This document shows, one piece after another, positions 1,770 to 63,740 of a stretch of DNA of 64,000 nt (positions are counted from its first letter, which is position 1; the number at the start of each line of letters is the position of its first letter). This DNA comes from Symbiodinium natans. Taxonomy: Eukaryota; Sar; Dinophyceae; Suessiales; Symbiodiniaceae. Below the pieces are notes generated by a model. That model was not told the origin of the DNA. It made no database searches and saw only the letters and a program-made list of their open reading frames with translations. The stretch is taken from positions 21,001-85,000 of the forward strand of contig CAJNDS010000076.1 in assembly GCA_905221605.1 (NCBI GenBank), written 5' to 3'. The position numbers and the translations under genes are program-made.

Positions 1770-1905
1770 GTTCAAAGCGTACAGGTGCCCACATCCCGCC
1801 GAGCGCCTCCGCGCCAATCTTGCGAGGGTCTCCCGCGCATGCGCTCTTCAGGGCCAAGGCAGGTGGAGTGTGCGAGAGCTGAGGCTGCTGCTTGTACTCT
1901 TGTTG
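1770..1905 (+). CDS. Conserved 5' segment of HelA (putative exon E0)
   Basis: The frame reads ERLRANLARVSRACALQGQG and then ...RELRLLLVLL. It aligns without gaps to frames at 26440-26575 and 60900-61027, where the same frame ends at a GTAAGA donor. In copy A the donor is changed (GGCCAAG). The conserved frame suggests a 5' coding exon of the helicase gene, or a short upstream ORF. The product of this segment alone is not recognisable. Confidence 0.3.
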
Positions 1906-1977
1906 GCCAAGCTTTCGGTGTGAATACGTTGCCGCCTGCATAGGTGATGTAAGAGTTACATAGTATGGAGTACATAG

Positions 1978-2130
1978 ATGCCTCCCAAATTTGAGAGCCC
2001 GAGGGCCCGGGGGCCCAGCCAAGCTCTGGGACTCAGGCAGAGAATGCTTCGACCGACGCTTCCCAAGCCGATGCCGAGGCCCTGTTGCCACCAACGACAG
2101 GGGAACATAGGGGAACCGGGGAGCAGAGAT
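1978..2130 (+). CDS. Conserved ATG segment upstream of HelA E1
   Basis: An ATG at 1978 opens MPPKFESPRARGPSQALG. Copies B (26615) and C (61069) open with MPKFKKPECPGPAKLWDQ and MPPKFKKP. Small indels put the three copies in different frames after 8-12 codons, and copy C hits TGA at once. Either this is a decaying first exon or the segment is conserved as 5' untranslated sequence. It overlaps no other candidate. Confidence 0.2.
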
Positions 2131-2780
2131 CTTGTCAAATAGCAGGTTCCTGTTCCAAGTATATGGAGATCAGGGGATTCGCATTTTTTCGTGCGGCTGA
2201 AAGTCAGAACCCTGGAGCTGCGATAATGGAAAGAAAAGCTTGGGCACCCACGGAGGCCTGAGGCCGGGGTCGTGCGCTTAAGTGCGCATAGGTGTGCACA
2301 CGTGCCGGTGAAGCATGGCTGAACAGCCGAAGGGAGTCAGCGAGTTGCAGTTTGGGTTGTTGTGTGGGTTTTGGGATGCTTGGGGATGTTTTAGGGAGTT
2401 TTTGCCGTGTTGCATCAAGCTCGCGCGTGTGAAGTCTCGGTAGACCACATGCCCCGCGAGCCAGTCATGTTTAAAGAGAAGTTGTTGAGTCCTGCTTGCA
2501 GGACCAAGCATCGTCTCCAACATGCCCCCAGGCCCGCAGCAGCCATGTGCACAGAGTTGGTTTGACCGGTTTTGGTTCCTTCATCCTTGGATCGAAGCTT
2601 GTTCCCGGCTTCCGTACTACGTACATGATGTACTCGGACCCGTCAGGTCTTGCTTTCCTCGTGTTGCCTGGAAACCTGAGGTCTTATGATATGCGCTTGC
2701 CGGGTCGTGCTAGCGTGAGATCGACTGCCCACGGACCTAAGACTTGCTTCGTCCTTGCCAATGTTTCCGAGCATTGCCAG

Positions 2781-3200
2781 GACCGATTGCCTCCCATCGG
2801 GAAGGTCCTGATCGCCTCCGAAACGGTCGACAACTGCATCCGCGTTTGCACGTCTTGCCCGTCAGACCTCTACAACCACGTCGAGGCCTTGTGCAGCGAG
2901 TTGGATATCAGGAGGGCCTTTGGTAGAAAGGGCGACTTCATGGAGGACACAGAAGGCGAAGACTGGTTCGGCCATTGGCAGAACCGAGTGCTGCAAGCTC
3001 TGGACGACGCCCTCCAGACGAAGCGAGAGGGTGCCATCTCCCTCCAGAGCCTAATGATCACCGACGGCAATAATCCCAACTGCAAGCGGGAGCAGGAGAA
3101 CATGGAGGAGTTAGCGGAAGCGCTTCAGTTTGAGCGCGGAACGTCATTGAGCTTCCAGGTGATTCGTCGGCTGCTGTGCATGCAAGACTTGGAAACGGAG
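2781..3200 (+). CDS. HelA exon E1, acidic N-terminal domain
   Basis: An exon of exactly 420 nt (140 codons, phase 0 at both ends), bounded by TTGCCAG|G and ACGGAG|GTTTGC. The same length and boundaries occur at 27228-27647 and 61676-62095. The product contains a cysteine pair region (CIRVCTSCPSDLYNHVEALC), a strongly conserved core (RRAFGRKGDFMEDTEGEDWF), a helix (GHWQNRVLQALDDALQTK) and an MITDG turn. It has no match I recognise. By position it is the N-terminal domain of the helicase-like protein. The alternative GT at 3217 would shift phase in copy B by one base, so the GT at 3201 is preferred. Confidence 0.6.
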
Positions 3201-3498
3201 GTTTGCACCATGACCGGTCAGTTTTTGTTTGCGTGTGGTTGAGCCGACAGACCCCCAAACCCATCCAAACTCAAACCCCAAAGCAGCAAAGCAGCGGGGA
3301 GTCAACATTCAAAGGGTCGATGCTTCCTGTCCCCAAATGATGCCCAGGTAGTTTGCCGAGACAGGACGGGCGTATTCAAATCAGCTTGAGTCAGGGCTGA
3401 GTGCAGAAATATCTGGAACTAAAGTGCAGGCAACAACATGAAACAGCTATCTCGTCTGCCCTTGTGCTCGCGATCTTGGTTGGGCCTGCTCATGCGAG

Positions 3499-3598
3499 GA
3501 GCACGAAGTCCAACGGGCTTACAAGCAATTCCTCGACTCGGGCAAGCACAAAGATGCCTGGTCCTTCTACCTGAGGGCCATGGCTTTGAAGGACCCTG
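3499..3598 (+). CDS. HelA exon E2
   Basis: A 100-nt exon following GCGAG (acceptor) and ending in CCTG before GC, a GC-type donor. Copy B has the same length with a GT at the same position (27959). It encodes EHEVQRAYKQFLDSGKHKDA then WSFYLRAMALKDP, an amphipathic helical segment. Entry phase 0 fits the end of E1. Exit phase 1 fits the E3 entry seen in copies B and C. The region past 3598 holds the intron with the GT microsatellite. Confidence 0.55.
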
Positions 3599-3727
3599 GC
3601 CTTGCTAGACACATTGAAGGGCTTTTCTTTTATGTCGTTTGCGCGCCCTGTTGCACAACCCATAAGCACTCTTACCCCGAACTTGCTTTCACAGGAACTC
3701 GAAGCAAGTGCTTGCGGATGTTAACAA

Positions 3728-3780
3728 TGTGTGTGTGTGTGTGTGTGTGTGTGTGTGTGTGTGTGTGTGTGTGTGTGTGT
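3728..3780 (+). repeat. (TG)n microsatellite in HelA intron 2
   Basis: About 26 uninterrupted TG dinucleotides. The homologous site in HelC (62749-62763) has only seven or so, and in HelB the corresponding intron contains the 2.9-kb insertion. Confidence 0.95.
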
Positions 3781-61675: not shown

Positions 61676-62095
61676 GACGGAGTGCCTCCCATCGAGAAGG
61701 TCCCGATCCCCTCCATCGCAGTGGGCAAGCCCATCCGCGTCTGCACGTCTTGCCCGTCAGAGCTTTACAACCACGTCGAGGCTTTGTGCAGCGAGCTGGA
61801 TATCAGGAGGGCCTTTGGTAGAAAGGGCGACTTCATGGAGGACACAGAAGGCGAAGACTGGTTCGGCCATTGGCAGAACAGAGTGCTGCAGGCTCTGGAC
61901 GACTTTCTCCAGACGAAGCAAGAAGGTGCCATCTCGATCCAGAGCTTAATGATCACCGACGGCGACAATCCAAATTGCAAGAGGGAGCAGGAGAACATGG
62001 GGAAGTTAGCGGAAGCGCTTCAGTCTGAGCGCGGGACATCGTCGAGCTTCGACGTTATTCCTAGGCTGCTGTGCGTGCAAGACTTGGAAACGGAG
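61676..62095 (+). CDS. HelC exon E1
   Basis: 420 nt, phase 0 both ends, TTGCCAG|G to ACGGAG|GTTTGC. Nearly identical to HelB over the first 105 codons (PIRVCTSCPSELYNHVEALC). It then resembles HelA at the end (KREQENMGKLAEALQSERGT, TEVCTMTG beyond the donor). It is therefore a mosaic of the A and B types. Confidence 0.6.
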
Positions 62096-62378
62096 GTTTG
62101 CACCATGACCGGTCAGTTTTTTTGTTTGCGTTGATGCCAAAACCGAAACCCCGAAGCGGTGGGGACTCAACATTCAAACGGTCGATGCTTCCTGTCCCAA
62201 AATGATGCCCAGGTAGGTTGCCGAGACAGGACGGGCGTGTTCAAATCAGCCTGAGTCAGGGCTGAGTGCAGACATGTTTGGACCTAAAGTGCAGGCAACA
62301 ACGTGAAATAGTTGTCTTGCCTGCCCTCGTGGTCGCGACGCGATAAGGTTCGGGTATGGTTGGGCCTGCTCATGCGAG

Positions 62379-62478
62379 GAGCACGATGTCCGATGTAAGT
62401 ACGAGCAATTCCTCGACTCGGGCAAGCACAAAGATGCCTGGTCCTTCTACCTGATGACCATGGCACTGAAGGACCCTG
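62379..62478 (+). CDS. HelC exon E2 (donor changed)
   Basis: EHDVRCKYEQFLDSGKHKDA, then WSFYLMTMALKDP. After CCTG the GC or GT donor of copies A and B is replaced by AC, because nine bases are deleted. A GA donor one base earlier (CCT|GA) would break phase. Confidence 0.45.
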
Positions 62479-63003
62479 ACACATCGAAGGGCTTATTTAC
62501 TTGTTTTATCTTTTGCGCGCCTTCTTTGCACCCATAAACACTCCTACCCGAGAAGCGGCACTGAGCGGTATGGGGAGGCAAGAGTTGCTGCGCTGGCTTA
62601 TATAGGAGATCCTGTGTTGCAAGGGCACTATCCATTCACATAGCCCTTGCTCGGGTCTTGGGTGGCCTCCTGGGAACACCTCAAAAAGGCTTATTTACTT
62701 TCACAGGAACTGGAAGCAATTGCTTGCGGATGCTAAACAACGTGTTTCTGTGTGTGTGTGTGTTGCACTTATATGCATGTGGTCGCCACATCCCCTCCAA
62801 AGATCACACATCCCCTCCAAGCATCCTTGCTGCTGCTATATCCTATGCAGTCCTACGCAATGAACGCCAAAAACCGGCATTCAACTGCAATTGTTTCAGT
62901 AGTTTTCTTGCCGGTGGAAGTTGTGATGGCCACAAAAGTATTGCAGCGGTTATGAAGGCCAAGGGCCATTGACAGCTTTGTTTTCAACGAGTCTTTGGGG
63001 CAG

Positions 63004-63640
63004 GGGTTGCGCCATGTTTTGACTCTGCTTGGAAGGCGCAAGCTGGATCACCGCCAGGTCCGTCGGCGCAGTCTTTGATAGATCGAGGTGCCATGGTTGG
63101 GTCTGCATTGTTATCCGGGAGCAGAGCTGAAGGGCTGAGTGGCTGTGACGATGTTGCTTTCTGCGAGCGAGTTGATCGACTCATCGACTGCTTTGCTTTG
63201 TCGAAAGAAATCAAGAAGATTGTCACGAGATGGAAGATTCCGATTCGGTTCGACCCACAGAGCCTGATCGTTTGGAAGGCAGTGGAGTGGGGTTTCGACG
63301 TGAAGTCGGAACGAGGCTTCGCCCGATGCCTTCGAGATGTCGCAGGTATCAGCATTGGGGTGACGGCTGGCAACAGCAAAGGCCATCTCCTTCTGCAGGT
63401 CTTCACAAGGTGGCACAGTGTCCACGACATCGCCACTTCGGGGCAGAGACTGGAGGAACTGCGGTGGATCAGAGGAGAAGCGTGCAAGGCAAAGTTGCCT
63501 CAAGACCTTCTTCAAGAAGTGCAGGCGGAGATAGACGAGGAGGAGAAACTGCAGAAGGCCGGAGGATGCTTCAACTTTGCTGTGCACACATGTGGCCAAG
63601 CAATTGGAGTGCCGTTCCCGCCTGTTTGTGTGTGGTAGCT
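63004..63640 (+). CDS. HelC exon E3 (diverged)
   Basis: Enters GGGCAG|GG in phase 1. VAPCFDSAWKAQAGSPPGPS, then SLIDRGAMVGSALLSGSRAE. It keeps VTRWKIPIRFDPQSL, FTRWHSVHDI and EELRWIRGEACKAKLPQDLL. Only about half the residues match copies A and B, mostly in the RWKIPIRFDPQS core, which is likely the functional heart of this domain. Read unspliced, the frame ends at TAG at 63636-63638. Confidence 0.5.
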
Positions 63641-63675
63641 CCGTTTCTGATAGTCTTCGATTTGTCAGGGGTTCT

Positions 63676-63730
63676 CTCCAGGTCCATCCTACCCAATCAG
63701 CATGCCCAGAAGACAAACAGACGCAGATGG
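63676..63730 (+). CDS. Possible small HelC exon
   Basis: Between CTCTCCAG and a strong donor GATG|GTAAGTA, the frame VHPTQSACPEDKQTQM is open. It has no counterpart in A or B, so it could be chance. Confidence 0.2.
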
Positions 63731-63740
63731 TAAGTACAGC

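Follow-up and report, generated by a model that had tools for sequence, protein, structure and literature searches.

The 64,000-nucleotide window analyzed here (Symbiodinium natans contig CAJNDS010000076.1, abbreviated C76, positions 21001-85000) carries copies of a repeated unit in which the exons of a helicase-type motor are followed by a tandem array of leucine-rich repeat (LRR) exons. This repeated, shuffling helicase-LRR family is real, and from its sequence we infer a fusion of the two parts and a function for the product. With about even confidence, the units are interpreted as a tandemly duplicated, shuffling family of single multi-exon helicase-LRR recognition genes that would be NLR-like in logic but not in family. 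Coordinates without a prefix (1-64,000) refer to the window, and a contig prefix denotes contig numbering. Genome-wide searches covered 759,417,921 bases in 2543 contigs.

Repeated units within and beyond the window

Self-BLASTN of the window (145 off-diagonal pairs at E ≤ 1e-5; rows of at least 150 bases were used for the copy layout) detects one unit in three offset copies on the plus strand, beside local repeats. Exon-wise tblastn was applied to C76:1-195000 except 85001-90000, C1767:110001-130000 and C1668:160001-200000. By both methods, the window holds two complete sets (units A and B) of N1, N2, N3 and motor exons followed by the tandem LRR-exon array, all on the plus strand; a third unit (C) begins at 60.9 kb and has its motor beyond the window. 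The window copies have exons, introns and order in common at 68-88% DNA identity in self-BLASTN, and the introns of the units can be aligned as well. The N3 and motor region of A is 79% identical to that of B across 2.65 kb, the N1 region is 75-84% identical among the window copies, and 84% identity is found both between the flanks 17323-17641 and 58625-58947 and between 25531-27807 and 59926-62255. The first-pass annotation had placed three helicase and two LRR loci on one strand, in identical order with the same flanks. The copies, strand, exon order and flanks stand and the self-comparison confirms the repeated arrangement, but only two motors lie within the window, the spacing between units is uneven (about 5.6 kb of extra DNA at 17.6-23.2 kb, with a channel-like open reading frame (ORF), separates A from B), and the B array is split by an insertion.

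Genome-wide searches with the motors of unit A and of contig C225 returned the identical set of at least 14 motor loci on eight contigs, a lower bound from two queries with the best candidates scored. Six motors lie on C76, one on C1767 (unit G, with LRRs) and two on C1668 (H and I), and the cluster extends past the window. The C76 cluster comprises a motorless LRR array (LRR0, 10.6-14.5 kb) and units A (23.5-38.2 kb), B (48.1-79.4 kb), C (N1 at 82.6 kb, N2 at 84.0 kb and part of a motor at 90.0-90.8 kb), D (102.9-107.9 kb), E (115.4-131.9 kb) and F (150.5-163.9 kb); no motor was found ahead of LRR0 in C76:1-10.6 kb. The C motor part is of a divergent type, with 48% amino acid identity to A by exon-wise tblastn and 40-59% by piece in the genome-wide search. 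A short exon, X, and an LRR array lie directly downstream of five of the 14 motors (A, B, E, F and G). One other motor, the distant paralog on C225 (39-43% amino acid identity to A by piece), is followed by an LRR of another type. Its exons (GSEGAASLAEALGRLPQLQ...) lie on the strand of the motor at C225:833050, 835730, 837548, 841534 and 844147, the first being 0.95 kb beyond the point where the motor is predicted to end. These are the five best of at least 63 genome matches at E ≤ 0.1, the query itself among them, and the adjacency is unlikely to be due to chance, in a comparison that is post hoc and uses a match count that is a lower bound.

A genome search with the DNA of the LRR module found 35 matches, of which 22 are on C76, eight on C1767 and five on C1480. 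A composite LRR protein query has 106 matches on seven contigs, and related LRR arrays therefore occur away from motors also. A genome search with Pfam LRR_6, which scored 150 of its 378 candidates and missed the arrays known here, gave 25 matches, and none of these is on a contig that carries a motor. The duplication of a unit with both parts that the first-pass annotation proposed is supported, and the pair is not confined to this scaffold: the arrangement recurs on C1767 and, with another LRR subfamily, on C225. Co-duplication is evident in the five units with X and LRRs but is not strict, as C, D, H and I lack a clear LRR, the X-LRR array on C1480 has no motor, and E has a different motor.

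Comparison in 200-base windows identifies unit E as a chimera of a divergent motor with the shared LRR end. Over C76:116.0-120.4 kb, E matches I of C1668 at 89-100% identity, except that the window at 120.4, beside a length difference, is 72% identical; identity to the type 1 copies over this region is mostly 55-77% where they can be aligned. From 120.8 kb, its identity is 82-97% with A and 83-96% with F; E aligns with I there in only four of 14 windows, each partial. The switch point is just past the motor exon, and the LRR end is found joined to two motor types.

It is highly improbable that the copies are an assembly artefact in which one locus was assembled repeatedly. Outside the window, A and F share a stretch at 95% over 3.8 kb and A and H one at 95% over 1.6 kb, and the E chimera could be a misjoin. 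The copies in the window, however, diverge by 12-32% at the DNA level, the arrays vary in insertions and in the number of LRRs (3-6 pairs), separate contigs carry copies, and the LRR end of E is not identical to that of A or F.

The helicase motor and LRR variability

An alignment of five motors contains the full helicase motif set, Walker A and B included, represented by GAGKT, a DEAH-like motif, SDESQ, VVRST, DGLE and TRAQ. Pfam DEAD (PF00270) scores above its cut-off in motors A, B, E, C1906 and C2261, and the motor ORFs match DEAD, ResIII, PhoH and UvrD. The UvrD and SLFN-g3 matches in A are below the curated cut-offs, as is UvrD_C_2 in C2261 (E = 1.1e-4, 22.5 bits; cut-off 27.4). The motif order looks SF1/UvrD-like, and the term nucleic-acid motor is a prediction from motifs and Pfam matches only. 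A PDB sequence search gave a best E of 0.94 with A alone and 5.6e-5 with a profile, covering mainly the P-loop half, and a single-sequence structure model of the A motor was unusable (pLDDT 36.7). Pattern searches for relatives returned 232 prokaryote and 84 viral matches, none of which was upheld by tblastn. In the helicase paralog at C2261:349343-352199 the open frame extends into a stretch resembling a longin domain (Pfam E = 0.08, under the cut-off).

Seven motor copies are open across 580-811 amino acids; the figure for E includes N3, which shares a single open frame with its motor (ORF C76:118266-120998, 911 amino acids). The ratio of nonsynonymous (pN) to synonymous (pS) differences is 0.24-0.47 in 20 of 21 motor pairs. 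The motor is under purifying selection.

The LRR units contain LQELDMRDC-like and LQKADFSWC-like stretches that by eye follow the LxxLxLxx(N/C) repeat pattern; the sole LRR-bearing window ORF tested (39241-39909) had no Pfam match. Variability was measured in 27 units (22 from C76 and five from C1767) with stop codons skipped, one unit having a stop in LRR2. Ten predicted concave-face codons, picked with the repeat pattern after the repeats had been inspected, gave pN = 0.353 (0.318-0.384) and pS = 0.326, compared to pN = 0.095 and pS = 0.125 for the other 53 LRR codons. Random sets of 10 codons reached the concave mean in five of 20,000 draws. Intron diversity was 0.136 between LRR1 and LRR2, 0.179 in the 250 bases upstream and 0.255 in the 250 bases downstream, and the concave codons differ more than these adjoining introns. 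Many scaffold codons are invariant across the 27 units and others vary, with the variability concentrated at the predicted contact residues. This pattern points strongly to LRR variability of the recognition type, and a variable LRR together with a helicase suggests a recognition protein somewhat like an immune receptor. The raised concave pS may reflect a path-counting effect in multiply changed codons or a local diversifying process. Some LRR units are identical in protein, namely E1 and E2 and two units of G. Telomere-type CCCTAAA runs occur in the introns between many LRR units, for example at 15510-15628 and 55150-55429, and are dense at C76:173-193 kb; runs of this type may promote exchange. 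Repeats of the TTTAGGG type, intron-rich units on a single strand and donor-like sites other than GT would be in keeping with a dinoflagellate source.

The motor-LRR junction

In most copies the open frame of the motor runs up to a donor-like site at an equivalent place (slashes mark predicted boundaries). Copies on C76, C1767 and C1668, like C262, have GAG/GAC or AAG/GAC there; C225 has AGG/GAC (less clean) and C1906 has CAG/GCT, and the frame of C2261 continues without a break. The corresponding peptides are FDPFAE/D in type 1, FDPLAK/D in type 2, FNPLAR/D in C225, FNPLAAE/D in C262 and FQPVQ/A in C1906. These sites are predicted phase-0 GA or GC donors, and GC and GA donors with AG/G acceptors are described for Symbiodinium (PMC4083563).

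Exon X (117 nt, phase 0/0) lies 474-492 bases upstream of the first LRR exon; its distance past the motor end is 1.85-2.99 kb in units A, B, E and F. It is open and constrained in all five motor-LRR units (pairwise pN/pS 0.05-0.68, 10 pairs) and is the strongest coding segment between the motor end and the array in a strict scan (minimum pN/pS 0.18). Its seven genome-wide matches are the five motor-LRR units, C1480 (63%) and one marginal match, and it was found in none of the LRR-less motor units read. LRR1-type exons begin CAG/GA in phase 0 in 31 of 32 cases, LRR2 exons end CAG/GACA in phase 0 in all 27, and a terminal exon ending PERL(F/Y)RR(A/V)-stop closes all six arrays. LRR exons lie downstream of the motor with compatible predicted phases in five units. 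The motor, X and the LRRs are probably parts of one gene; this is likelier than two genes because of the donor-like site without a shared stop, exon X and the phase-0 LRR exons. The earlier suggestion of separate helicase and LRR genes with cooperating products gives way to this prediction. A candidate extra exon of unit A at C76:29062-29390 was rejected, since its frame is broken in E and B, it is mostly missing in G, and it was not kept by the strict scan.

Several observations weigh against a family of single recognition genes. When both LRR types were sought downstream of the other eight motors, no clear LRR was found in the stretches read: 1.6 kb for C (to the next N1), 7.5 kb for D, C1668:160-200 kb for H and I, 6.0 kb for C1906, 6.3 kb for C262, 8.4 kb for C2463 and 4.0 kb for C2261 (to the contig end). 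Leftover LRR matches near these motors are short, with E of 0.01 or weaker; a 12-residue match to the terminal LRR exon at C1668:170520-170555 (minus strand, E = 0.02), downstream of motor H, is perhaps a remnant and was not counted as an LRR. C1480 has X and LRRs without a motor match, and its similarity to the C76 units starts at about X. The first in-frame stop falls 34, 129, 8, 114 and 19 codons beyond the donor-like site in A, B, D, E and F, respectively, making short variable C-termini possible. The strict scan also passed C76:31475-31624, before the first LRR exon, and two single windows. Splice sites were read by eye, LRR1 exon A5 is the one without a CAG acceptor, and a clean GT, GC or GA donor was sought in the LRR1-LRR2 intron and none was found. 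The concave pN/pS of 1.08 (0.88-1.30), with pS raised too and codons chosen after inspection, falls short of positive selection in the strict sense. Finally, the close motor pair E-I has a pN/pS of 0.86, the H motor is broken into three pieces, the C225 motor is divided between two frames, one LRR unit of G has a stop, and the LRR array of B is interrupted by an insertion.

The motorless array on C1480, the eight LRR-less motors and the nearby stops also fit a second reading, possible but held with clearly less confidence, in which neighboring helicase and LRR genes were co-duplicated through adjacency in a unidirectional cluster and need share no function. Such clusters, and tandem arrays, are nothing unusual in dinoflagellates (PMC11453091). 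Against this reading stand a donor-like site that is kept at an equivalent place while no stop is shared, and the similar motor-LRR order at C225. Exon X opens at a splice-acceptor-like site, and a Met-containing frame before it was rejected as an LRR start since a stop interrupts it in F and frameshifts do so in B and G. No match to a spliced-leader relic motif was found within the window.

A third reading takes the units as a mostly decaying tandem cluster, multiplied by unequal exchange and with little function left. The broken H motor, the stop in G, the B-array insertion, the LRR0 array and N1-N2 cassettes without a motor are expected in such a cluster, but seven open motors with the low pN/pS given above, and LRR scaffold codons that stay invariant while others vary, make it improbable.

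As a single gene, each complete unit would be transcribed and translated from N1 to the terminal LRR exon as one mRNA and one protein. The product would consist of the conserved N-terminal region N1-N2-N3, the helicase-type ATPase motor, the short linker encoded by X and, at the C-terminus, paired LRRs in an array built from repeated exon cassettes. The concave LRR face may bind changing ligands, and the ATPase could act as a switch or as a nucleic-acid effector. The logic would be NLR-like, a sensor LRR plus an NTPase, with a helicase in the NTPase position. Diversity would have three sources: cassettes of the LRR array would be exchanged unequally, LRR ends would be swapped, and contact residues would change fast.

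Related systems and neighboring features

The units resemble NLRs, in which a nucleotide-binding domain is combined with LRRs, in having a P-loop NTPase followed by LRRs, a tandem cluster, exchange between paralogs and variability at predicted LRR contacts. They differ in that the NTPase is a helicase, with no NB-ARC or NACHT Pfam match, in that the unit has no known signaling domain, and in that its status as one gene is a prediction. RIG-I-like receptors offer an analogy for a helicase motor in a suspected sensor. Those receptors are CARD-bearing SF2 helicases that lack LRRs, whereas the motif order here appears SF1/UvrD-like and neither a CARD nor a RIG-I model was among the Pfam matches of the scanned ORFs. 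UvrD, Pif1 and Schlafen-3-type helicases are similar in motor motifs and in the weak UvrD_C_2 (C2261), UvrD and SLFN-g3 (A) matches, but those matches are all below the curated cut-offs.

We know of no well-described immune receptors in dinoflagellates, and the family provides a specific candidate for a recognition system inside the cells of a dinoflagellate-like alga. If the fusion is true, the combination of a helicase with a variable LRR would be a novel design for an NLR-like sensor. Searches of an open-access library, judged from the listings and from passages of selected papers, showed no dinoflagellate gene, or pair of genes, that joins a helicase to LRRs. In Amphidinium gibbosum, LRR ranks with the most abundant domains, and tandem arrays are common in dinoflagellates (PMC11453091); LRR expansion alone is therefore ordinary. 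Lineage-specific expansion of LRR proteins is described for Symbiodinium genomes in PMC6001144; in the text available, those LRRs are FNIP-like and sds22-like and the word helicase does not occur, whereas the present family is helicase-linked. The fusion could be checked against full-length and spliced-leader transcripts like those generated for Symbiodinium natans and S. tridacnidorum (PMC8045281).

A TIR-like exon recognized by eye (C1480:244543-245025; no Pfam match) lies about 4.5 kb upstream of the motorless X-LRR array. It has 67 genome matches including itself, one of which is the TIR_2-like ORF on C76. That ORF (C76:110276-111118; Pfam TIR_2, 23.1 bits, cut-off 28) begins 2.4 kb after the LRR-less motor D; it was rejected as a true partner of D because an 89% identical copy on C1820 indicates that it may be a dispersed element. 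These TIR-like sequences prompt a broader and rather unlikely proposal, a dinoflagellate class of non-NLR receptors in which a helicase would replace the NB-ARC/NACHT switch and hypervariable cassette-exon LRR ends would be swapped between motor types and even to other N-termini.

Table 1. Features of units A, B and C in the window.
Feature	Position	Strand	Remarks
Unit A N1 (family of unknown function)	2475-3239	+	11 genome-wide matches, on C76, C1767 and C1668; no Pfam match
Unit A N2	3989-4612	+	Copies in other units; no Pfam family above cut-off
Unit A N3	5170-5787	+	Exon-wise tblastn
Unit A motor exon, helicase motifs I-VI	5825-7687	+	Pfam DEAD PF00270, 42.2 bits (cut-off 26); predicted phase-0 donor GAG/GAC at end
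Unit A exon X	10204-10320	+	39 codons, phase 0/0, CAG/G...CAG/GC, between motor and LRR
Unit A LRR array	10802-16630	+	5 repeats of ~1.35 kb, two exons per repeat (LRR1, LRR2)
Unit A terminal LRR exon	17072-17200	+	Ends PERLYRRA-stop
Unit B N1	27201-27686	+	Exon-wise tblastn
Unit B N2	31654-32289	+	Self-BLASTN, exon-wise tblastn
Unit B N3	33395-33934	+	Exon-wise tblastn
Unit B motor exon	33966-35765	+	82% amino acid identity to A; predicted donor as in A
Unit B exon X	38759-38875	+	C76:59759-59875
Unit B first LRR repeat	39349-39650	+	Self-BLASTN, exon-wise tblastn
Insertion dividing unit B LRR array	40075-53860		13.8 kb; gap between homologous pieces; simple repeats, ORF 51187-52119
Unit B remaining LRR, 3 repeats and terminal exon with stop	54509-58441	+	Exon-wise tblastn
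Unit C N1	61649-62134	+	Exon-wise tblastn
Unit C N2	62973-63638	+	45% amino acid identity to A

The ORF inside the B-array insertion (plus strand, 310 amino acids) is gag-like by eye and has no Pfam match. The extra DNA between A and B contains a single open frame at 21934-23106 (plus strand) that resembles a Cys-loop ligand-gated ion channel, with weak Pfam Neur_chan matches below cut-off. Two N1-N2 cassettes without a motor lie ahead of unit D at C76:92.3-95.7 and 97.6-101.0 kb, spaced by about 5.3 kb. Between E and F, C76:135563-143386 (minus strand) carries ORFs of 1700 and 907 amino acids, the first non-LTR retrotransposon-like by eye, and a ubiquitin hydrolase (UCH) ORF lies upstream of the cluster at C76:1393-3153.

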